25,485 nt of DNA from a virus. The DNA is taken from the IMG/VR virus record IMGVR_UViG_3300005529_000447, positions 1 through 25,485 of that record; one strand, given 5' to 3'. Each line of letters begins with the position of its first letter. The stretch's first letter is position 1. Under the pieces are notes generated by a model that did not search any database, had not been told where the DNA came from, and saw only the letters and a program-made list of their open reading frames with translations. Below, in pieces: positions 1,519 to 23,304 of the stretch. The translations under genes and the position numbers were made by a program.

Positions 1519-2118
1519 CTAACGGAGGATGATCGTCGAGGCGGGGACGCCCGCCGACCGGGCCTGCCGGACGCCGCGGACGGCCGTCCGGTTCTGGCGA
1601 ATCCGCTGGATCAGGCCGACGCGCTGGGTCCGCTGGCGGGCCGGGGCACGAACGACTACCGAGTTCGCCACCCCGTACCCGACGTTACGGCCGATGCCAC
1701 GGCCGACGTGCCCGTAGGTCGTCGCGTAGGCCGGGGCGAACGCCAGCACGGGCGCCGCGGCGTAGGCGAGATAACTCGTCGTCACGGCCGTCGCGGTGGC
1801 GTAGCTGGGCACCGTGGCCTGGACCGGCGCGTAGGACACGGCCGGGGCCGCGGGTGCGGCCGGCGGCACGCTCGGGGCCGGGGTCGCCGGCTGGCACGGG
1901 GCCGCCGCCGGGGCACACGGCACCGCCGCCTGAACCGGCACCTGAACCGTCTGGACGTAGGGCGTGACGTACACGGCCGCGACGGGCACGGCATAGAGGG
2001 CCTGCTGGTAGGTCGTCGCCGAGTAGCTGTACGTCGAGGCCGGGACGCCGACGGACGGCGGACAGGCGGCGGCGAGGCCGGCCACGGCCAGACCGAGAAT
2101 CGCGGAAAGCAAACGCAT
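1519..2118 (-). CDS. Exported Ala/Pro/Val/Tyr-rich low-complexity protein, 199 aa
   Basis: ATG at 2118 lies seven bases after GGAGG; a GTG at 2124 overlaps the upstream stop but is too close to that SD. The N-terminus is a signal peptide (MRLLSAILGLAVAGLAAAC). A Cys at its end raises the possibility of lipidation, although LAAAC is only an approximate lipobox. The body (residues 25-140) is built from Ala, Pro, Val, Tyr and Thr. The C-terminal 50 residues are Arg-rich (APARQRTQRVGLIQRIRQNR). Planctomycetes encode many secreted proteins of this style. It is coupled to the cytochrome gene upstream, which suggests joint function at the cell surface or periplasm. Confidence 0.7.
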   Translation of the reverse strand: MRLLSAILGLAVAGLAAACPPSVGVPASTYSYSATTYQQALYAVPVAAVYVTPYVQTVQVPVQAAVPCAPAAAPCQPATPAPSVPPAAPAAPAVSYAPVQATVPSYATATAVTTSYLAYAAAPVLAFAPAYATTYGHVGRGIGRNVGYGVANSVVVRAPARQRTQRVGLIQRIRQNRTAVRGVRQARSAGVPASTIILR

Positions 2119-2120
2119 GG

Positions 2121-2666
2121 TCACTCCTCCTTCTTTTGACCGGGCTGTTGCCCGAGGGCCTTGAACACCTTGAGCAGTTCTTCCTTCTCGTCCTTCGTCA
2201 ACTTGACCCCGGAGTCGGGTGGCGGCATTGTACCACCGGACACCTCCTCGTTCAAGTGGCGAAGGTCGCGGCCGGTGAGGGTCTGCCGGAACCGGCCCTG
2301 GTCGTCAAAGAGTACGAACCCCTTCCCCCTCTCTTTGGCGACGGCCGGGGTGTGACACCCGGCACACTTGGCCGCCCCGCTGGAGAGAGCCTTCGGCACG
2401 TCCGCCGCCGGCTTCTCCGATTCGGCGGGGGGGCCGTCACCCTCGGCCAGCTTGTTGAGGGTGTCTATCAGCTTGTCGAGTTTCTCCTCGATCCGCTTGA
2501 GGCGGTCGTTGTCCTGGGCCTGCTGCGCCTGCGGGGCGGCGGGCAGGTAGCCGACGCCGTACAGGGCCGTCGCCGTGTACGCCCCGGCGACGTACTGGCC
2601 GTTGTGGTACTGGGCCGGCGCCACCCCCGCCACGCCCAACAGGGCGGCGATCGTTACGATCCTCAC
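2121..2666 (-). CDS. Secreted monohaem c-type cytochrome-like protein, 181 aa
   Basis: GTG at 2666 follows GGAGG by seven bases and overlaps the upstream TGA (GTGA). A signal peptide (MRIVTIAALLGVAGVAPAQ) precedes a Tyr/Ala-rich stretch. Residues 52-74 form a charged coiled-coil segment (DNDRLKRIEEKLDKLIDTL). The haem-binding CAGCH is at residues 101-105, and GGTMPPP with Met147 is the likely distal ligand. A lysine-rich helix follows (TKDEKEELLKVFKAL). This matches a small planctomycete cytochrome c domain acting outside the cytoplasmic membrane. Nothing here shows a redox partner except the CxxCH protein directly upstream. A cytochrome in a phage head module is unusual. Confidence 0.8.
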   Translation of the reverse strand: MRIVTIAALLGVAGVAPAQYHNGQYVAGAYTATALYGVGYLPAAPQAQQAQDNDRLKRIEEKLDKLIDTLNKLAEGDGPPAESEKPAADVPKALSSGAAKCAGCHTPAVAKERGKGFVLFDDQGRFRQTLTGRDLRHLNEEVSGGTMPPPDSGVKLTKDEKEELLKVFKALGQQPGQKKEE

Positions 2667-4090
2667 GGGACACCTCCTACGGCACGCTGGAAGATCAGGT
2701 AAGTCTCCTCGAAATGCTCTCGCCTCATCCTGATCGGCGGATTTTGGAGCAAGCCGCCAACCACCGGGTCGAACAGCTTACCCCCCGGCGCCCCCGGATC
2801 GTCTACGATGTAGGGGGCGAGTTTCTGCTTCAGAACTTCCACACCCACGCCGACCTCCCAAGCAATCTCCTCCAAGCCGAGATCTGACTCGTAATCGGCC
2901 CAAGCCGAGGCGAACAGCCTGGAGTTGTCAACCACGTCCAGGCCGTTGCACTTCCTGACCGCCGCGGCGTAGTAGGCGACGTCGAGGTCTAGCTGTCCCG
3001 GGAGGTCGGACAGGTAAACTTGCCGAAGCCTCTTAATCTTGTCGTAGCTCAGTGATCGTAACTGCCCACGATCGCGGAACAGGGTACGGGCGAAGTCGTT
3101 GATCGGCCGCAACCCCTCGACGTGACAGCGAACACACGATATGCAGATGTGGACGCGCGTGTCGTTACTGGACGACTTCTTGTCCCCGGCGATGAAGTCG
3201 GGGGCTGCGTCCTGCCTCTCTCCTTTGTCGTTGGCGAGGAAAAACACGAACAGGCCGTTTGCTAGAGACCCGTATTGCTCTGTCGCGTCCCCGTGCGGCG
3301 GCTGCGTCGCCCCGTCGAGGAGACGGAGGGTGTTCTGCTTGTCCACGGAGGATTTGAAGTCCTCGGTACGCCAGAACCCTCCGGTGATGCTCTGCAACCG
3401 CTGGATCGCCCTGTTATTAAGGGTCACGCCGGACTTCCCGACGGCCGCCCTCATCTCCTTCTTCTTCTCCTCCGCCAGCTTCACGTCCACCCCAACGAAC
3501 TTCAGGAAGTCGTTCTCGGTCTTGCCGATGCCGAGAATATCGTAGTACCCCACCACCCGATCCTTCTGCTGGCCGGTCTGGTACAGGAACCAGTCCGCCC
3601 GGAGGATGGGGACTTGACTGTCCGTGAGTGTATACAGCTCAGCGATGCCGGCCGGCCCGACCCAAGGGGCGGCGAGGAATCGCCTCTCGACGTACTTTCT
3701 GCCGTAGCCGTCCGTCACGGTCACGTCCGCCTGGACGTGGAAGTACGGGTCGTTCGCCGCCAGTAACTTGCCGTAAACCATCCGATCAATGCCGTAGTCT
3801 CGAATATCAAAGGCGACGAGTTCTCGGTGAGGACCAACCAGCCTGGGTTGGACGATCTCAGACTCTTTAGACAGTTGGTTCAGGTGGAACGAAATCCACT
3901 CGAACGCCTTCTGCCTCTCCTCGTCACTGACTTTGTAAGTCAGGTCTAGGTACTTCGTGTGCCTAGCCCGGTCCGGCGGCAGGGTCTTGGCGTCGGCGAG
4001 GGCGATTGCCACGGCCTGCGGCGGGGACGCCACCGCCGGGGCGGCGACCGCCACGAAGAGTATGTACCACGTTGGTAGGATTCGGTTCAT
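2663..4090 (-). CDS. Secreted CxxCH protein, planctomycete-type, 475 aa
   Basis: ATG at 4090 overlaps the stop of the 29-aa gene (ATGA) and follows GGGGGTGAC. A signal peptide (MNRILPTWYILFVAVAAPAV) leads a mature protein with one CVRCH haem-type motif at residues 319-323, plus an extra Cys316. The segment before it (FKSSVDKQNTLRLL, then SLANGLFVFFLANDKGERQD) resembles a secreted planctomycete family in which a LPNGLQ-type segment is followed by CMACH. Sequence between residues 330 and 475 is charged and helical. It is translationally coupled to the cytochrome at 2121-2666. An electron-transfer or sensing role outside the cell is inferred; the substrate is unknown. Confidence 0.75.
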   Translation of the reverse strand: MNRILPTWYILFVAVAAPAVASPPQAVAIALADAKTLPPDRARHTKYLDLTYKVSDEERQKAFEWISFHLNQLSKESEIVQPRLVGPHRELVAFDIRDYGIDRMVYGKLLAANDPYFHVQADVTVTDGYGRKYVERRFLAAPWVGPAGIAELYTLTDSQVPILRADWFLYQTGQQKDRVVGYYDILGIGKTENDFLKFVGVDVKLAEEKKKEMRAAVGKSGVTLNNRAIQRLQSITGGFWRTEDFKSSVDKQNTLRLLDGATQPPHGDATEQYGSLANGLFVFFLANDKGERQDAAPDFIAGDKKSSSNDTRVHICISCVRCHVEGLRPINDFARTLFRDRGQLRSLSYDKIKRLRQVYLSDLPGQLDLDVAYYAAAVRKCNGLDVVDNSRLFASAWADYESDLGLEEIAWEVGVGVEVLKQKLAPYIVDDPGAPGGKLFDPVVGGLLQNPPIRMRREHFEETYLIFQRAVGGVP

Positions 4091-4176
4091 GTCACCCCCG
4101 GCGGACGCCGCCGCGGCCCGACCATGAGTATCAGACCTACGACAACGAGAACGACGATCGCCCAGAAGACGTCCAT
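4087..4176 (-). CDS. 29-aa single-span membrane peptide
   Basis: ATG at 4176 opens a reading frame of MDVFWAIVVLVVVGLILMV followed by GPRRRPPGVT. That is one hydrophobic helix of about 18 residues and a basic tail, so the C-terminus would stay in the cytoplasm by the positive-inside rule. Its TGA overlaps the ATG of the 475-aa secreted protein (ATGA), which suggests translational coupling. A G-rich SD (TAGGGGG) lies about 11 bases upstream and overlaps the upstream gene's TAG; a GTG four codons earlier is possible but too close to it. Its role is unknown; it could help assembly of the neighbouring exported proteins. Confidence 0.55.
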   Translation of the reverse strand: MDVFWAIVVLVVVGLILMVGPRRRPPGVT

Positions 4177-4191
4177 CGGCGAGACCACCCC

Positions 4192-5130
4192 CTACGGCTG
4201 TTTGAACGTCCAGCCGCCGGGGGCCGTGACGACCTTGCCCGCCGTGTCCACCACCACCACACCCGCCGTCGATACCGGCGGGGGCGGGTTGACCGGGGGC
4301 GGGGCGGACGGCTTCGGGTACAGCTTGGCCGCGTAGTCGGCGTCGATCTTGTCGATGTCGAGGCCGCCCGGGATCGGCTGGCCGTTCTTCGTGATGCCGC
4401 CGGGCAGCTGGTAGCACATGATAGAGAGGGCGTCCACGGGCGTCGGGCTGAGGAGGGACGCCTCCGAGATCGGGGTCAGCACCTGCTCCCTCACCTCTTG
4501 GGCCGACCAGCCCTGCGTCTGCTCGAAGTAGTCGAGCGTCTTCTGCTCGTCGAGGAGGGCGACGAGGGCGGCCCGGAGGTGTTCGTGCGGGAAGCCGAGG
4601 GTGTGGCCGGTTTCGTGGCGGACGACCCGGGCGTACTCGGAGTCCGGCGTCTTCAGGACGAACGCCTCCAGGTTCATCGTCTGCTGGTCGGACGGGATGT
4701 GAAGGACGTCGGTCCCGAGATAACTCCAGTACCCGCCCTGCCCCCGACTGATCCGCACCTGCGCGTTGGCTTTGGAGGCCAGCTGGAAGACGACGTTTGC
4801 GTACTGCCCCCACGCATTCATGTGGGAGAGAATCTTGTTCTGGAGGTCGGCGACCGTGGTCTCCATGAAGGCCACGCCCAGCTTAACCCCGCCGGCGCCC
4901 CAGTATTTCGTGGTGAGAAGGGCGATCGCCTCCGGTTTCATCACCTGGGCCATGACCTCGGGCGTCATGGCCGGGGACAGGCCGCGGATGCGGGGCCGGT
5001 TGGCCGGGTTGTGCTCGACGGCCGTCCGGGCGGCGGCCACCCGCTGCGACGGGTGGAGTAGCTTGACGGAACAGCCCACGATCCGGTTCCCGGCCGGGCC
5101 GTGGCCCTGATCGACCTGACGAATCGCCAT
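4192..5130 (-). CDS. Astacin-like (M12A) zinc metallopeptidase, 312 aa
   Basis: The zinc site HETGHTLGFPH spans residues 172-182 and is followed by E183-H184, the extended HExxHxxGxxH-E signature of astacins. A Met-turn SIMCY is at 236-240. Upstream, TTKYWGAGGVKLGVAF and HMNAWGQYANVVFQ resemble the start of the astacin catalytic domain. The C-terminus (about residues 275-312) is a Pro/Val linker and short tail. There is no signal peptide, unlike secreted astacins, so the enzyme may be released by lysis or carried in the virion. ATG at 5130 has GAGGGGCGTGTC upstream. A close paralogue is encoded at 5812-6687. Confidence 0.88.
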   Translation of the reverse strand: MAIRQVDQGHGPAGNRIVGCSVKLLHPSQRVAAARTAVEHNPANRPRIRGLSPAMTPEVMAQVMKPEAIALLTTKYWGAGGVKLGVAFMETTVADLQNKILSHMNAWGQYANVVFQLASKANAQVRISRGQGGYWSYLGTDVLHIPSDQQTMNLEAFVLKTPDSEYARVVRHETGHTLGFPHEHLRAALVALLDEQKTLDYFEQTQGWSAQEVREQVLTPISEASLLSPTPVDALSIMCYQLPGGITKNGQPIPGGLDIDKIDADYAAKLYPKPSAPPPVNPPPPVSTAGVVVVDTAGKVVTAPGGWTFKQP

Positions 5131-5151
5131 GACACGCCCCTCGGTTAGTGA

Positions 5152-5811
5152 CTAGGCCCACGACCCGCCGACGCCCGCCAACCCGTTCGCCCCGCCGTCC
5201 ATCGCGGCGACGGTGAACTCGTGGGTGGTGGGCACGGTGCCGACGGTCCAGGCCGCGTTGAAGTAAGTCTCCGTGTTGCCCGAAATCGTGATCGTCTCGC
5301 CGCCGACGAACCCGTGCGCCCCGCGGGTGAAGCAGTAGCCGGGGCCGCCGTTGATTGCGACGATGCCGAGGACGGTGTGGGCGGCGTCGGCCGTCGGGAC
5401 CGGGATTTGCGTCCCCGTGGCGTTGACGTCGAGGGTCGCCTCGGACGCCGTCTCGGCGTGGAACAGGTAGGTCAGGTAGCCGCCCTGCCGGGTCACGTCC
5501 ACGGCGGGGCAGATTTTCCCGGTCGTGTTCGAGAGGACGTAGTACAGGCCGGGGATGAGGACGTTCGACGAGAATTTCAACCTGCCGTCGGCGACGTAGA
5601 CCGCCTCGTCCCCGGACAGGGTCGGGGCGATGGAGATGCCGACGACGGCGGCCTCCACGTCGGTCAGGGCGGCCGACGCCGGCTTGAGGGTGGCGTCGGC
5701 CGGGTCCCGGTAGAGTGGGACGCACAGGCCGATCGTCGCCCCGGCGGCCTCGGCCTGCGGACCGTTGGTCTGTTCGACGTAGACGTTCGTCGGGATGGTG
5801 ATGTCCGGCAT
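5152..5811 (-). CDS. Decoration-like or tail-associated phage protein, 219 aa
   Basis: ATG at 5811 follows the TAA of the second peptidase directly (TAAATG), with GGAAG as SD. The protein is beta-rich with few charged residues. Its N-terminal part (EQTNGPQAEAAGATIGLCVP, later VEAAVVGISIAPTLSGDEAV) resembles DUF2190-type capsid decoration proteins. The C-terminal part (ETITISGNTETYFNAAW, VGTVPTTHEFTV) resembles an Ig-like repeat common in phage fibres. It lies between the two metallopeptidase genes and could be their virion anchor or substrate. The assignment rests on pattern resemblance only. Confidence 0.55.
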   Translation of the reverse strand: MPDITIPTNVYVEQTNGPQAEAAGATIGLCVPLYRDPADATLKPASAALTDVEAAVVGISIAPTLSGDEAVYVADGRLKFSSNVLIPGLYYVLSNTTGKICPAVDVTRQGGYLTYLFHAETASEATLDVNATGTQIPVPTADAAHTVLGIVAINGGPGYCFTRGAHGFVGGETITISGNTETYFNAAWTVGTVPTTHEFTVAAMDGGANGLAGVGGSWA

Positions 5812-6687
5812 TTACTTCCGTTCCAGTGCTTCGAGGATTCGGTTCATCTTGTCCTCCATCGCCGCCATCCGGTCTTCGAGGACGCTGCCGGCGACCACCG
5901 CCCTCGTCGGCCGGGGGTAGATTCGGGAGCAGAACTGGCCGTCCTTCTCGTCGATGTCGTCGCCCCCGCGGACCGGCAGGCCGTCCCGGGTGATCGTCCC
6001 GGGCAACCGGTAACACATGATCGAGTCCTGATCCTCCTCCGTGTGCAGGCCCTTGACGAGTGCCTCGGAGATGGGGGTCAGGACTTGCTGGTCAACGACC
6101 GACTTCTTCCACCCCTGGGTTTTGAGGAAGTAGGCGTAAGCCTTGGCCGGGTCGATCCGGGCGACGAGGGCCGTCCTCATGTGTTCGTGGGGGAACCCGA
6201 GGACGTGGCCGGTCTCGTGGCGGACGACGCGGCGGTATTCCCCCTCGGGCGTCTTGGCGGTGAACGAGTCGAGGTTCATCGTCTTCTCGTTCGTCGGGAC
6301 GAGGCGGCAGTCGGGGCCGAGGTAGCTGTAGTAGCCCTCCCCGCGGGTGAAGGCGATTCTGACGTCGGCCAGGAGTCGGGAGGCTTCCGAGAACTGGACG
6401 TTGCCGAACGCCCCCCAGGCGTTCATGTGAAGGAGAATCCGCCGCCGCAACTCGGCCGTTGCCGTCTCCATGAATCCGACGCCCAACTTGACCCCTCCGG
6501 CGCCCCAGTATTTCGTCGTCAGGGCCGCGATCTTGAGGGCGGTGGGCGGGCCGTCGTCGGCGAGGTGGGCCGGCCGCGGGGCGTTGCCGGGGAACAGCCG
6601 CATTGCCAGTTCGGCGGCCTCGGACCACCGGTGCTCCGGTAGTTCTTTGACCGTGCAGGCGACGAAATCCGGTTTCTTGCGTGGCAC
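5812..6687 (-). CDS. Second astacin-like (M12A) zinc metallopeptidase, 291 aa
   Basis: GTG at 6687 is chosen because AGGGGG precedes it (TAGGGGGTTTCGC). The zinc site HETGHVLGFPH is at residues 157-167, followed by E-H, with Met-turn SIMCYRLPG at 222-230. The core aligns along its length with the peptidase at 4192-5130 (TTKYWGAGGVKLGV, FMET, HMNAWG, LTPISEA). The N-terminal 45 residues and the C-terminus differ: here the end is a charged helix (VLEDRMAAMEDKMNRIL) that could oligomerise. There is no signal peptide. The pair looks like a duplication that diverged at the ends, perhaps for different partners. Confidence 0.88.
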   Translation of the reverse strand: MPRKKPDFVACTVKELPEHRWSEAAELAMRLFPGNAPRPAHLADDGPPTALKIAALTTKYWGAGGVKLGVGFMETATAELRRRILLHMNAWGAFGNVQFSEASRLLADVRIAFTRGEGYYSYLGPDCRLVPTNEKTMNLDSFTAKTPEGEYRRVVRHETGHVLGFPHEHMRTALVARIDPAKAYAYFLKTQGWKKSVVDQQVLTPISEALVKGLHTEEDQDSIMCYRLPGTITRDGLPVRGGDDIDEKDGQFCSRIYPRPTRAVVAGSVLEDRMAAMEDKMNRILEALERK

Positions 6688-6712: not shown

Positions 6713-8158
6713 CTACGGTACGGATGTCCCGGCGTCAAGGTCGGACGCAATTACGTCCGGGACCGGCTGGCCGTCCACCTTACAGCCGACCCGACCGACC
6801 CCGACCGTCGTCGGTAAAACCGCGTCCCCAACGTACAACCGGCACCCGGCCAGCACGTTCGACCGACTCTGCGGCGTGTCTATCAGGTTGCCGGCCATGT
6901 CGGTCGCCCGCACGGCAACGCGGCGAATGGGCTGATCGTACATATCGAGGGCGAATCCGTTCTGGTTCCAGCGGTGGGGAGAGAGTACGGACAGGCCGGA
7001 GTTCTCGATCCTGTTGTTCGCGGCCAGCGGCCCGAACTCGACCGGGGCGTCCCGCCACTCACAATCGGAGAAGACGTTCCCGGTGTTGTCGCCCCAAAAC
7101 AGCGTCGGGGCGTCGGTCTGCATGTCCCAGACCCGGTTGTCGCGGGCGGGGGACTGGAACTGGACGCAACTGCCGCGACAGCCGTGGGCGCGGGTGGTGA
7201 AGACGAGGTTGCGGGAAAACTCGTGTGCCCCCTCGCTGATGAACGACTCGCTGCCATTCTCGGTGCCGGCAATGTTTCGGAGGCGGGTGCCGACGAACAG
7301 GCAGTCGGTGATCGGCCCGTCGTCCGTGTTGAACACCGGCCCGCGGTCCGTGTCGTCGTACTCGCAATCGATCTGACAGGCCGAGGAGCCGTCCGCGCCG
7401 GGGGAGTACCTCAGCTGGTAGGCGTGGGGCCATCCCGGACCGCGGAACCGGCACTTCCACATGAGGCCGCGGGGGGCGTTCGTCGCCCCGGCCCCGTCGA
7501 ACAGGCAGTTGATGAGGGTGACGGTCGCGTTCACGGCCCCGAGGTTGCAGTCGTGGAAGACGCACCGCTTGCAAACGAGGCCTGGGTTCCACGCGAAGAC
7601 CCCGTCTTTCGCCAGCGGCGCCTCGAAGGTGATGCCCGGCCCGAAGCCGCTGATCGTCAAGTCCGGGGACGACGAGACGACCCACGACCGCGAGGATGAG
7701 AGAATGACGGCCCCGGCCCCGAAAATTGTCCGCGGCTCCTGTGGCGGGTCGATGGTCGCGGCGCCGATGTCGTAGAGGCCGGTGAGTACCACGTCGCCGA
7801 CGGCCAGCGCCTTGGTGATCGCGGCGGCCGACGCGCCCGGCGCGAGCGTGGTCGTGTGCTTCCGCGGTGTGGGCGCCACCACGTCGAAGGCGAACTCCGG
7901 CCCCCGCCCGGAGTCGAGGAGCCACCGACCCGGTACGGCATTGGCAAGGAGGGAAACGGAGCCGTAGAACTGGAGCGGCCAGCCGTTACCGGACGTGCGG
8001 GGCAGGTGGACCCTCGGCACCTCACTTACCACACCGAACGGGCCGACCCAACGGTAGGTCGTGGGGTCGAATCCGCCGCCGACCGCCCAGACCGTCGCCA
8101 GGGAGCGGTCGGGGTCGCCCGGGACGAGGCGAGTACGGTCCTGCCCGCGGGTCGCCAT
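6713..8158 (-). CDS. Beta-helix tail-spike-like protein, 481 aa
   Basis: ATG at 8158 shares its first base with the portal's TAA (TAATG), with GAGGG upstream. Residues about 100-400 consist of short repeating strands with regular Asn/Asp/Cys positions (CVFHDCNLGAVNATVTLINC, CLFVGTRLRNIAG, VFSDCEWRDAPVEF), typical of right-handed beta-helix proteins. These form phage tail spikes and surface depolymerases. No catalytic residues can be assigned. The N-terminus (about 90 residues) could be the virion-binding part. Placement next to the portal rather than beside tail genes is unusual, although no other tail genes are in the window. Confidence 0.65.
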   Translation of the reverse strand: MATRGQDRTRLVPGDPDRSLATVWAVGGGFDPTTYRWVGPFGVVSEVPRVHLPRTSGNGWPLQFYGSVSLLANAVPGRWLLDSGRGPEFAFDVVAPTPRKHTTTLAPGASAAAITKALAVGDVVLTGLYDIGAATIDPPQEPRTIFGAGAVILSSSRSWVVSSSPDLTISGFGPGITFEAPLAKDGVFAWNPGLVCKRCVFHDCNLGAVNATVTLINCLFDGAGATNAPRGLMWKCRFRGPGWPHAYQLRYSPGADGSSACQIDCEYDDTDRGPVFNTDDGPITDCLFVGTRLRNIAGTENGSESFISEGAHEFSRNLVFTTRAHGCRGSCVQFQSPARDNRVWDMQTDAPTLFWGDNTGNVFSDCEWRDAPVEFGPLAANNRIENSGLSVLSPHRWNQNGFALDMYDQPIRRVAVRATDMAGNLIDTPQSRSNVLAGCRLYVGDAVLPTTVGVGRVGCKVDGQPVPDVIASDLDAGTSVP

Positions 8159-9828
8159 TACGGTTTACCCTCGACTTTGCCCTTCGGCCGACCGTTCTTC
8201 TTCGTCGTCGGGGTTCCCTTCCTGCCGCCCCCTTGGGGCTTGGCCGCCGGTGCCGGCTGGGCGGGGAGGGCGACGGCCGTGGCCTTGGCGATCGTCGCCG
8301 TCATCGGCTCGGGCTTGTTGGCCACCAGTTCCTTCTCGACCGCCTTCGCCTCGGTGTCGCTGAACCCGAGGCAGAGTGTCAGGGCCAGTCGGAGGGGCAT
8401 GACCTGATTCACGTCGCCCGTCACATACTGCATCAGCGCCTGGATGCGCTTGAGGCCGATCTCCGCCTTGTCCTTGTCGCCGAGGGACTTCAGGTCCCGC
8501 CAGCTGACGAAGTACTCGGCCGCCCGCGGCAGGCACCCGAGGTCCATGAGGCGGTCGATCACCGGGCGGACGAGGAACGGCTCGACGTAGTTCGCCTGCC
8601 GGCCGCCGAGTCGCTCCTTCCACGTCGTCGTGTTCTCGGTGCCGGCGAGGTGGCCGGTCTGCATCCCGAGGAACACCGGGACGGGGATGCCGCCGGTGGC
8701 GCAGAGCATGGCGATCTGCTGGTCGAGGTTGGACTTCGGGTCGGCGACCTGCGGGGAGAGCGACTTCCACTCGCCGCCGACGGCCGACAGGAACCGCTGG
8801 AGGCCGTTCTGGTAGGCCGACATCTCCGTCCGGATCGTCGCCTTGTCGATCACCCCGGACGAGAGGAACTCCGGGTAGGTGGTGAAGGCGTAGCCGGGGA
8901 ACCCGCCCTTCCAGAACATCTCGGCGGACGACCCGGCCACCTTGCGGACGTCGGTGATGATGTTGATGACGTTCTGGAGGCGGGGGACGCCGTGGACCTC
9001 GGACGCCTCCCGGTTGTCGGCGACGTGGACGACGCGGGTCCAGTGGACGCGGACGGACTTGACCACCTCCTCCTGGCCCGTGCCGCCGGTCGCGTACAGG
9101 CCGTCGCCGCCGAGCCGCAGGCTGTAGTAGAGGGGCTGGCCGAAGTGCCACGACCGGACGTCGGCGTCGATCTCCTCGATGAAGCAGTGCTCCTCGCCGA
9201 GCGCCCGGACGTAGAGGAGGTTGTGGGTGCGGGCGTTCTTGCGGACGGTCCCGTCCCGGTTGTACGAGGCGACCGGGGTGGCCGGGTCCGCCCCGTCGTC
9301 CAGGCCGAGGAGGAGGACGCCGAACCGGCCGACGCCGGACAGGCGGTCGATCCGGTGCATGTAGTGGAGGAGGAGGGTCTTGCGGACCAGGGCGGCGAGG
9401 GCCGTCTCCCACGGGGTCGGGTTCTTGGGGTCCTCCTGCTCGTAGATCGTCGGGTAGGCGGCCCAGCACTCGTCCGGCCAGATGTTGACGTACCTCGCCG
9501 CCAGCCCGACCCGGGCGTAGGCGTAGGAGTAGTCGGACGGGCCGGGGGCGGAGATGTAGCCGCACTCCTTGTCGAGGTCCCGGTTCGGGTTGCCGTCGAG
9601 GCCCCACGACCCGCCGCGGACGGCCGTCACCCGCCCGCCCGTCAGCCACGCCGGGTTCTCGGGGGACCAGTTGGCGACCGGCCCCCGGCCGGCGGCGGAC
9701 TGCTTCCACTGGTTGAGCAGGGTGTTGAAGACGGAATCCTCGCGGGACTTCCACTCCCCCTCTTCGAGGACCTGATCGGCCCCGGTCGTCCGGGAGTATT
9801 CGTTGGCGAGGATGAGTTGTCGGACCAC
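8158..9828 (-). CDS. Phage portal protein, DUF1073 (Gp6-like) type, 556 aa
   Basis: GTG at 9828 follows GGAGTAATCCC and lies just after the TAA of the 60-aa gene. The family signature is visible: DRLSGVGRFGVLLLGLDD near residues 160-180, a segment with RVVHVADN and SEVHGVPRLQNVIN near 265-290, then SAEMFWKGGFPG near 300-315, and QQIAMLCATGGIPVPVFLG near 365-390. DUF1073 proteins form the ring through which DNA enters and leaves the capsid. The last 60 residues are Ala/Pro/Lys-rich and probably disordered. Length fits the family. It is the structural anchor for calling this block a head module. Confidence 0.85.
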   Translation of the reverse strand: MVRQLILANEYSRTTGADQVLEEGEWKSREDSVFNTLLNQWKQSAAGRGPVANWSPENPAWLTGGRVTAVRGGSWGLDGNPNRDLDKECGYISAPGPSDYSYAYARVGLAARYVNIWPDECWAAYPTIYEQEDPKNPTPWETALAALVRKTLLLHYMHRIDRLSGVGRFGVLLLGLDDGADPATPVASYNRDGTVRKNARTHNLLYVRALGEEHCFIEEIDADVRSWHFGQPLYYSLRLGGDGLYATGGTGQEEVVKSVRVHWTRVVHVADNREASEVHGVPRLQNVINIITDVRKVAGSSAEMFWKGGFPGYAFTTYPEFLSSGVIDKATIRTEMSAYQNGLQRFLSAVGGEWKSLSPQVADPKSNLDQQIAMLCATGGIPVPVFLGMQTGHLAGTENTTTWKERLGGRQANYVEPFLVRPVIDRLMDLGCLPRAAEYFVSWRDLKSLGDKDKAEIGLKRIQALMQYVTGDVNQVMPLRLALTLCLGFSDTEAKAVEKELVANKPEPMTATIAKATAVALPAQPAPAAKPQGGGRKGTPTTKKNGRPKGKVEGKP

Positions 9829-10677: not shown

Positions 10678-10841
10678 TTCTTACCCCTTCGCCTCTTGGA
10701 CGGCTTCCACCCGTGCTCGATCGCCCGGAGGAGGCGCATCTGGGACTTGGCCCGCTTTTTACTCAGGCCCTTCTTGCTCTTGAACCCCCGCGGCCCCTTC
10801 ACCCGGTAGCCGCCCTTGCCTTTTATGAGTTTATATGGAAT
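10674..10841 (-). CDS. Small basic protein (IPYK...), 55 aa, apparent ATT start
   Basis: The frame reads IPYKLIKGKGGYRVKGPRGF, then KSKKGLSKKRAKSQMRLLRA, ending IEHGWKPSKRRRGKK. It resembles very short basic phage proteins that begin MPYK and carry a GGYKV-GP-G-KSKK pattern (recalled resemblance). No ATG, GTG or TTG is available at the expected start: the codon before CCA-TAT-AAA is ATT, seven bases after a perfect AAGGAGGG. The 5' end overlaps the 3' end of the broken HNH gene by 19 bases. The stop overlaps the next gene's GTG (GTGA). Either ATT is used as a rare start or the initiator was damaged by the HNH insertion. Confidence 0.55.
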   Translation of the reverse strand: MPYKLIKGKGGYRVKGPRGFKSKKGLSKKRAKSQMRLLRAIEHGWKPSKRRRGKK

Positions 10842-11354
10842 TGCACATCCCTCCTTAAATGACCCCAGCGACGACCAGAAACTATACGACTAATTGTACT
10901 CTGGCTTACGGACAACTCACAGGCAACGGAGGTCTGTGATTCCCCATTACTACACCGACGGATGATATCACAGACTTGTCGATTCGTAAACTTGGCGAGT
11001 CCGTGGTGTTCACCCCTATTGTAGTAAGCAGTTCCGTGGAATGCCTTGTCCCTCATGTTTACCGATCTAGAGGCCCATGATAGATTCTTCAGGTTACAGT
11101 TGCTAGGGTCCCTGTCGGGAAAGTGTCTACACTCCATTCCCTCTGGGCAGGGTCCGACAAAAGTCTCCAAAGACCAGTCGATGCACCAAACACCTAGAAG
11201 CCCTCCCCTGATTACACAAGGTCACTTGAGGATATCCACCCGAATATCCGTACCTGAGTAGTCCTCTGATACCACCCTTATGACTCCACACACGACCGGC
11301 GGTGTCGATCGTGTAATTGGGGAAGTTGGGTATTGCTTTTTCTCTATACGGCAC
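10823..11354 (-). pseudogene. Frameshifted NUMOD4/HNH homing-type endonuclease
   Basis: GTG at 11354 follows GGAGGG. The first frame reads through a NUMOD4-like DNA-recognition segment (IPNFPNYTIDTAGRVWS) to VHRLVFGDF and then stops at 11127. The other frame continues with ETFVGPCPEGMECRHFPDRD, SNCNLKNLSWA and a C-terminal helix-turn-helix. Removing one T from the TTT at 11169-11171 (minus strand) restores VHRLVLETFVGPCP, the usual HNH_3 order, and gives 176 aa, nearly the same as the intact relative at 22771-23304 (177 aa). Composition is visibly less GC-rich than the neighbours. It is probably a decaying mobile element; a sequencing error is the alternative. Confidence 0.8.
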
Positions 11355-11427
11355 CGGACTACCCTCCACAAGTCGGGAAAGTGGGGCGTCCTGCCCCTCG
11401 CCTCAGTCGTCCTAGCCCTCAAATCCA

Positions 11428-12786: not shown

Positions 12787-12792
12787 AGGAGG

Positions 12793-13048
12793 TGGCGGCA
12801 CGGATTCCGCCCGGATCGGACCGAGCGCACGGACGCACGACGGGACCACTAGCGGGGGTCCAACCCCGCAGACGCGCGACAGGCTCGGGGCACGACCCCG
12901 ACCGGCGCGGCCCTGAAAAGGGCATCGACGGACCGAACGGGGGTGCAACCCGTCGGCCCGTCACAACCCGCCCGGGTTGCGGGCCGCACGTTGCGGTTCG
13001 GCTACGGGCGGGCGGATCAGTCCCCGGCTCCGGGGACTGGACGGGGGA
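12793..13048 (+). ncRNA. Candidate structured RNA or leader with six serial hairpins
   Basis: Between the promoter and the ATG at 13056 there is no convincing gene, but local stems follow one after another: GCGGGG/CCCCGC (12852-12869), TCGGGG/CCCCGA (12885-12901), GCCCT-GAAA-AGGGC with a GNRA tetraloop (12910-12923), ACGGG/CCCGT (12937-12953), CAACCCG/CGGGTTG (12964-12979) and CAGTCCCCGG/CCGGGGACTG (13018-13039). The last stem ends 16 bases before the ATG and could control translation. GC-rich DNA makes some pairing by chance, but the regular series and the GNRA loop favour a real RNA. It matches no RNA family I know. Confidence 0.5.
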
Positions 13049-13055
13049 TTTCATC

Positions 13056-13619
13056 ATGGCGACGAAGAACAACAACGGGCGGAGCAACGGCACGGCGACG
13101 AAGAACAACAACGGGCGGAGCAACGGCACGGCGACGAAGAACAACAACGGGCGGAGCAACGGCACGGCGATCGACCGCGGGACCGACGAGGCGGTGTTGA
13201 CCGGCCGGGACACGGCCACGGCCCAGGCGGCGGCGGACGGGCGGGATCGGGACGCGGCGGGTCGGGCGGCCCGGCTGGCGGAGTTGCTGGAAGGGGTCAA
13301 GGCGATCCGGGAGCGCAACGCGGGGGATGTGTTGGCCCGCGCGGACAGGCTGAAGACGAACGTGATGATGCATTCGCCGGTCAGCGGCAAAATCATCAAG
13401 GGCGCGCTGGCCGGCGGGTACGACGGGCCGAACACGCGGGAAGACTTCTGGCTCTGGCTGGACAAGGCGGATGCCGTGACCGCGACGCAACCCGTCGCCG
13501 CGGCCGGGCAGTACATCGATCCGGACACGGGCAAGCCGAAGAGCGCGGCCACGAAGGCCGGCGTCATCACCGGGCGCGAGGCGGTCGCGTTCCTGGTGAC
13601 GGGGCCGAGGGCGGACTGA
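13056..13619 (+). CDS. Hypothetical 187-aa protein with three 12-aa Asn-rich repeats
   Basis: ATG at 13056 follows GGGGGATTTCATC; upstream codons in this frame overlap the hairpin leader and are not used. Residues 2-37 are three identical copies of ATKNNNGRSNGT. A helical Ala/Arg/Glu segment follows (RDAAGRAARLAELLEGVKAI), then VMMHSPVSGKIIKGALAGG, REDFWLWLDKADAVTAT and YIDPDTGKPKSAATKAGVIT. No enzyme motif is visible. The gene ends 20 bases before a strong terminator, so it forms a unit of promoter, long leader and single gene. The function is unknown. Confidence 0.65.
   Translation: MATKNNNGRSNGTATKNNNGRSNGTATKNNNGRSNGTAIDRGTDEAVLTGRDTATAQAAADGRDRDAAGRAARLAELLEGVKAIRERNAGDVLARADRLKTNVMMHSPVSGKIIKGALAGGYDGPNTREDFWLWLDKADAVTATQPVAAAGQYIDPDTGKPKSAATKAGVITGREAVAFLVTGPRAD
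13059..13166 (+). repeat. Three exact 36-bp tandem repeats inside a gene
   Basis: Units at 13059-13094, 13095-13130 and 13131-13166 are identical at the DNA level and keep frame. Identity at silent positions points to a very recent expansion or to ongoing copy-number change. Confidence 0.9.
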
Positions 13620-22770: not shown

Positions 22771-23304
22771 ATGCCCACCTACAAATCATTAGAGTTCCTC
22801 GGCTACCCTAAGTACCGTGTTGGAGATGACGGTTCGGTGTGGAGCTATCGCTCGATGGACGTTAAGGGACAAGGCCGCATTTGGCGGTGGAGGCCAATCA
22901 AGGCTACTCCGGGAACGTGGGGACATCTAATAGTGTCCTTGTGCCGTGATGGCAAAGTGACAAACTACTTCATACATCGACTCGTCCTTCTAGCATTCGT
23001 AGGACCCTGCCCACCCGGAATGATGGCCCGGCATTTCCCTGACCGAGACCCCACCAATAACAGCCTAGGCAACCTCTCATGGGCCACAGCCCTAGTCAAC
23101 CAACGGGATCGAGACATTCACGACACTCACAATAGAGGAAGGGCAAATACCTGGACATCAAAACTAACACACCCTCAAGTTAGAAAGGCCCGAAAACTAA
23201 AAGCAGGCGGCTGGACGTACAAGCAAATCGCCAACTTCTTCAAAATCTCATACCACCTTGCCTACATGGTAGCCTCTGGACGGTCTTACACTGCCGTCAA
23301 ATGA
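22771..23304 (+). CDS. NUMOD4/HNH homing-type endonuclease, 177 aa
   Basis: ATG at 22771 follows AAGGAGGTTATCAA. A NUMOD4-like segment (YPKYRVGDDGSVWS, residues 12-25) precedes the HNH_3 core: IHRLVLLAFVGPCPPGM (68-84), RHFPDRDPTNNSLGNLSWA (87-105). The core His and Asn residues are present. Residues 127-172 form a helix-turn-helix (HPQVRKARKLKAGGWTYKQI, ANFFKISYHLAYMVASGRSY). Such enzymes nick or cut one target and spread by repair. A/T content and codon choice differ from all neighbours. It sits between terL and terS on the opposite strand, ending three bases from the terS stop. It is related to the broken copy at 10823-11354. Confidence 0.9.
   Translation: MPTYKSLEFLGYPKYRVGDDGSVWSYRSMDVKGQGRIWRWRPIKATPGTWGHLIVSLCRDGKVTNYFIHRLVLLAFVGPCPPGMMARHFPDRDPTNNSLGNLSWATALVNQRDRDIHDTHNRGRANTWTSKLTHPQVRKARKLKAGGWTYKQIANFFKISYHLAYMVASGRSYTAVK

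Follow-up and report, generated by a model that had tools for sequence, protein, structure and literature searches.

A recurring head-region module of phages combining a novel haem protein family, a small cytochrome c, an exported repeat-rich protein and an exchangeable peptidase

What are two peptidases and two exported haem proteins doing among the head genes of a virus? The question is raised by a linear IMG/VR viral contig of 25,485 bp (the whole stretch analysed here, called the window), in which an earlier note had placed a block of such genes (1519-6687) between the portal and the prohead protease. The block lies exactly there with all genes on one (minus) strand, in the order portal, beta-helix-like protein, pepA, decoration-like protein, pepB, membrane peptide, haem475, cytochrome c, Ala/Pro-rich protein, three small genes and DUF2213. 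The upstream border is the portal gene (8158-9828, minus strand, as are all features of the block given below; Pfam PF06381 Phage_portal_3, E = 9e-24). The downstream border is the start of a DUF2213-type prohead protease gene (1-219), cut by the contig end with its first 73 residues present and recognized by homology to full-length relatives, in which the DUF2213 score is just under the cut-off and the gene adjoins the capsid gene. About 7.9 kb separate portal and DUF2213. All of the genes listed before are present in this slot, but it is wider than had been described: upstream of the peptidases, a 481-aa ORF (6713-8158) abuts the portal gene, resembles a right-handed beta-helix protein by eye and has no match in Pfam or NCBIfam, and downstream there are two small ORFs at the block end (1117-1509 and 853-1083) with no confident family match and a small coiled-coil-like gene (250-753) whose homologues adjoin DUF2213 in contigs L089 and L090.

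The genes are tightly packed, and the partial coupling proposed earlier is evident in several neighbours that abut or overlap: the gene for a 29-aa, single-span membrane peptide (4087-4176) overlaps that of haem475 through ATGA, the latter overlaps the cytochrome c gene through GTGA, and the Ala/Pro-rich gene starts at 2118. Downstream of the block, a terminator-like stem-loop with a T run (848-832) is the sole such site on the coding strand, terminator-like sites overall being no commoner than in shuffled sequence. Elsewhere in the window, an HNH-type gene (10823-11369, minus strand) is apparently split into overlapping frames (10823-11170 and 11127-11369), probably by a frameshift; a second HNH gene lies at 22771-23304 (plus strand), and an in-frame short tandem repeat (TKNNNGRSNGTA) is found at about 13059-13157 (plus strand), near the start of the ORF 12792-13619.

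The largest of the exported proteins, haem475 (2663-4090), has 475 aa, a signal-peptide-like N-terminus and one CxxCH at residues 319-323. In an alignment of 24 divergent members from phages and cells, CxxCH is fully invariant (24 of 24) and no other residue is, Y182, S220, R227 and D244 being near-invariant; the motif, earlier proposed as a haem site, is thus more than a chance occurrence. No second conserved His or Met was found among the 24 aligned members, which suggests that the haem site may be open. The window protein was matched in neither Pfam nor NCBIfam, no Pfam family was common to any two of 18 members, and a sequence search of the PDB returned nothing convincing. Its predicted structure is good (pLDDT 82, pTM 0.84), and a fold search with this model gave no match in the PDB or BFVD. 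Membership in the di-haem peroxidases (MauG and bacterial cytochrome c peroxidase) was considered and set aside, there being no Pfam, NCBIfam or fold match. In short, haem475 is a novel haem protein family, matching no named family and no known fold.

The following gene (2121-2666) encodes a small, exported-type cytochrome c, in which a coiled-coil-like N-terminal part precedes CxxCH and Met-Pro. The two features of class I cytochromes c, CxxCH and a distal Met, are both present, and judged by sequence this is the ligand set of an electron-carrier (His/Met) cytochrome c. CxxCH and Met-Pro were invariant in a first, five-member alignment; Met-Pro is missing from two cytochromes of the wider set and is present in the window (residue 147). 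The window protein is below the Pfam cut-offs of PSCyt1 and Cytochrome_CBB3 (16 bits vs 27), and the cytochromes of L094 and L098 are above one or the other, that of L094 matching PSCyt1. Next comes an Ala/Pro/Val/Tyr-rich, exported-type protein with a basic C-terminus (1519-2118). In most relatives, too, the cytochrome gene is succeeded by one for an exported low-complexity protein, and APVYAP, GYGQQ and AAPV repeats occur among these repeat proteins. A basic motif like GL[FIL]xR[IL]R closes many of them and reads VGLIQRIRQNR in the window.

Homologues of haem475 are rare in cells: they were found in three of 247 Acidobacteriota genomes (two strong), in two of 249 Pseudomonadota genomes (one strong) and in none of 117 Myxococcota genomes. 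Each of the four cellular homologues that were examined carries at least one cytochrome c site ahead of haem475 in the same polypeptide, and so the phage haem475 and small cytochrome are probably one two-haem oxidoreductase split over two genes. The earlier suggestion of captured planctomycete genes survives in part, since the astacin family is widespread across bacteria and haem475 has these rare, cytochrome-fused cellular relatives, but the genes form a recurring phage module and not a host-only locus. As for the host, a TIGR02996 match (E = 5e-24) in L086, a contig with the peptidase and without haem475, and the PSCyt1 match of the L094 cytochrome are indirect hints that it may belong to the Planctomycetota.

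Both peptidase genes, pepA (5812-6687, GTG start) and pepB (4192-5130), encode astacin/myroilysin-like metallopeptidases. The pepA product matches Astacin (PF01400, E = 5.8e-6) and Matrixin (E = 9.1e-6), each above the cut-off, and carries HExxHxxGFxHE and a Met-turn, and that of pepB matches Astacin (E = 3.3e-6, above the Pfam cut-off). The features that mark astacins, namely the zinc motif HExxHxxGxxH, a Glu after the third His and the Met-turn, are present, and H172, E173, H176, H182, E183 and M238 are invariant in 25 aligned phage and cellular sequences. The predicted structure of pepB (pLDDT 88) has myroilysin 5zjk as its best fold match (TM (target) 0.88, 30% identity). The N-terminal Cys20 of pepB is also invariant in the 25 sequences and is a candidate cysteine switch, which could keep the enzyme latent. 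Like most module peptidases, pepB has no signal peptide. The NCBIfam model 'beta-glucuronidase AbsR1' matches the pepB family, and its name may deserve a check; as an identity for pepB it was rejected, with 45 bits (E = 5e-12) against a cut-off of 650. C-terminal amphipathic helices are clear in the peptidases of L085 and L094, and were dropped as a peptidase feature since those of the window have none. The two window peptidases (within 4192-6687) are about half identical, and no second astacin copy was seen in the 20 astacin loci of the peptidase search. Between them lies the gene called decoration-like (5152-5811): the same gene adjoins the peptidase in three phages (homologues in L089 and L090), but the match to Phage_cement_2 is very weak (L089 homologue, E = 0.16). 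In L090 (10873-18041), the peptidase and decoration-like genes are present with no haem genes and with other exported proteins instead, one of which has a thioredoxin-like VCPACMAQ motif.

Astacin and haem475 occur together in 15 of 19 distinct astacin loci, as against one of 80 portal relatives (p ~3e-13, an indicative value because the compared contigs are unequal in size), and none of 80 cellular astacin loci retrieved has haem475 beside the peptidase. Among 21 loci reached by way of haem475 or the portal and not of the astacin, nine have a firm and one a weak match to a non-astacin peptidase close by: a matrixin in L059, L087, L230 and L234, a subtilisin in L252, L255 and L240, a papain-like peptidase in L186 (E = 2e-8), a sedolisin in L256 (E = 4e-84) and, weakly, a C39-like peptidase in L189. 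The remaining 11 have no recognisable peptidase nearby. Because unrelated peptidase clans interchange in the slot, protease activity itself, rather than one given protein, seems to be selected there. Exchange of the catalytic component at one position is a characteristic trait of lysis modules in phages. Directly upstream of haem475, where others carry the peptidase, three large phages have in common an uncharacterised gene of 161-173 aa (L241:7363-7884, L242:7290-7775 and L244:7251-7751).

Searches with peptidase and haem475 alignments recovered haem475 in 36 distinct viral contigs besides the window, and CxxCH is kept in 35 of these, the remaining one being truncated by the contig end. An adjacent cytochrome c is recognized in 29 of the 36 (counted by a profile, which missed the cytochrome of L091) and an exported low-complexity gene also in 29 (counted by a crude signal-peptide rule); gene calling in the relatives was simple, and some ORF boundaries are approximate. 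The carriers include the L242 contig (408 kb) and phage LR756511.1 (595 kb), and the gene order is the same in dozens of divergent phages with 20-40% identity. Portal and DUF2213 flank the cassette in L059 and L094; it stands directly ahead of DUF2213 in L089 and L098, and between capsid and head-tail connector genes in L082, L085, L096 and L100. The contig L094, from a 46-kb cassette phage (G010), also encodes MoxR-type AAA and vWA domains. Occurring at several different positions, the module is mobile within the head region and one occupant of variable slots. The synteny comparison around PF06381 (DUF1073-type) portals that had been advised indeed revealed a variable cargo slot, the gap between portal and DUF2213 ranging from 0.3 to 9.8 kb in 39 relatives and being filled with different cargo where a phage lacks the cassette. 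A host-only locus, which would have spoken against a phage system, was not what was found: head modules of further phages contain the cassette as well. No description of a phage c-type cytochrome cassette was found in the literature searched, which is not proof of absence. The module is thus real, recurring and so far undescribed in phages; its function can be put forward in conditional terms.

Taken together, the observed gene order, export-type N-termini, haem motif, split or fused relation, peptidase exchange and head-module location would fit best a module that acts late and on the envelope, whose most likely task would be to free virions from a protein-rich envelope, a reading to which we give a little less than an even chance. 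The module would be a mobile part of the late (head) operon, presumably expressed with it. Its core would consist of haem475, the small cytochrome c and the repeat-rich protein, all exported. The cytochrome, with its His/Met haem, may act as an electron relay, and haem475, with one attached haem, probably has an open site at which catalysis could take place; together they would make up a two-haem oxidoreductase, split over two chains, on the outer side of the inner membrane. The peptidase, mostly without a signal peptide, would be made beside these proteins along with a small membrane protein and held back in the cytoplasm, and that of the window would probably be latent through its cysteine switch. 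Late in infection, redox proteins and peptidase would act on the host's envelope, rich in protein (the host being probably one of the Planctomycetota), and this action may help the virions out. More tentative still is the fuller proposal that the host envelope is taken apart or rebuilt by the combined action of an exchangeable protease and two secreted partners, a split two-haem enzyme of novel fold and a repeat protein. The host-interaction or surface-remodelling role suggested earlier for these genes fits the exported proteins and likewise keeps its conditional form.

Several observations bear on release. Small membrane proteins accompany many relatives and have weak PHROG matches to spanin or hol-like families (E = 0.008-0.04); with weak matches only and no firm holin match, they were not identified as holins. 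No Pfam peptidoglycan hydrolase was found in the 78 proteins of two cassette phages, and Amidase_2, SLT and M15_4 are absent from the searched cassette contigs and nearly absent from non-cassette controls too, so that this absence fails to separate cassette phages from controls and was rejected as proof of a lysis role. We know of no haem protein in phage lysis. This, the want of a firm holin and the lack of a recognised peptidase in roughly half of the loci that haem475 led to (the compared contigs being fragments) weaken the release reading.

The main rival, which we consider unlikely, is that the module modifies the cell surface or excludes superinfection: once exported, the two-haem enzyme would oxidise or cross-link the likewise exported Tyr/Pro/Gln-rich repeat protein into a coat around the infected cell, and the peptidase would trim surface proteins. 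The repeat proteins do resemble elastic or cuticle-like matrix proteins, their genes come after the haem genes in most loci, and all three products are exported. However, tyrosine is absent from the L095 repeat protein and very scarce in its L087 counterpart, so that dityrosine cross-linking was rejected as a general mechanism; moreover, the peptidases mostly lack signal peptides, and a location in the head operon implies late expression, which would be late for exclusion. Respiratory auxiliary genes, with cytochromes that maintain electron flow during infection, are an improbable explanation. Cytochrome c oxidase genes of viruses have been reported from marine viromes (PMC3474794), and the small protein is an ordinary cytochrome c of the His/Met kind, but the cassette has no oxidase or reductase partner, its genes lie among head genes and not among early metabolic genes, and the link to a peptidase and a repeat protein would be left unexplained. 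It is improbable, too, that the peptidases, and perhaps the haem proteins, are virion cargo acting on the envelope at entry: the location between head genes, the decoration-like neighbour of the peptidase and the missing signal peptide of the latter would suit packaging, whereas the export signals of haem475, cytochrome and repeat protein, and the attachment of c-type haem outside the inner membrane, do not agree with head assembly in the cytoplasm. That host genes were picked up by chance and serve no purpose of their own, as the cellular relatives of astacin and haem475 might suggest, is hardly credible, because an order shared by dozens of phages so divergent and the invariant haem residues indicate selection.

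Although single parts, such as astacin and cytochrome c, were already known, the module was not, and haem475, its haem residues invariant, persists in carriers that range from small contigs up to the 595-kb phage. If the module does act on the envelope, it would give viruses a means, part redox and part proteolytic, of dealing with cells whose walls are rich in protein, and how phages leave Planctomycetota would become directly testable. Haem475 also offers a new family of c-type haem proteins, probably enzymes, to characterise.

Some known proteins and gene systems come near the module or its parts. Myroilysin of Myroides (family M12A) shares its fold, zinc motif, Met-turn and N-terminal Cys with pepB, which differs in being phage-encoded, lacking a signal peptide and adjoining haem genes. 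With the small His/Met cytochromes c (Cytochrome_CBB3 and PSCyt1), the module cytochromes share CxxCH followed by Met-Pro; unlike them, they are phage-encoded and have a long, exported N-terminal part that is Tyr/Pro/Gln-rich or coiled-coil. The sole resemblance of the haem475-cytochrome pair to di-haem peroxidases is the two-haem logic. The cellular fused proteins (in Acidobacteriota MAGs, and annotated as 'c-type cytochrome' on a Neorhizobium plasmid, NZ_CP123001) have the haem475 domain with CxxCH, but are single polypeptides with neither peptidase nor repeat protein seen alongside. Finally, the module differs from phage lysis cassettes of holin, endolysin and spanins in that its hydrolase is a protease, that it has two haem proteins and that no holin or spanin is confirmed, and resembles them in its presumably late genes, in an exchangeable hydrolase at a fixed place, and in the small membrane and exported proline-rich proteins close by.
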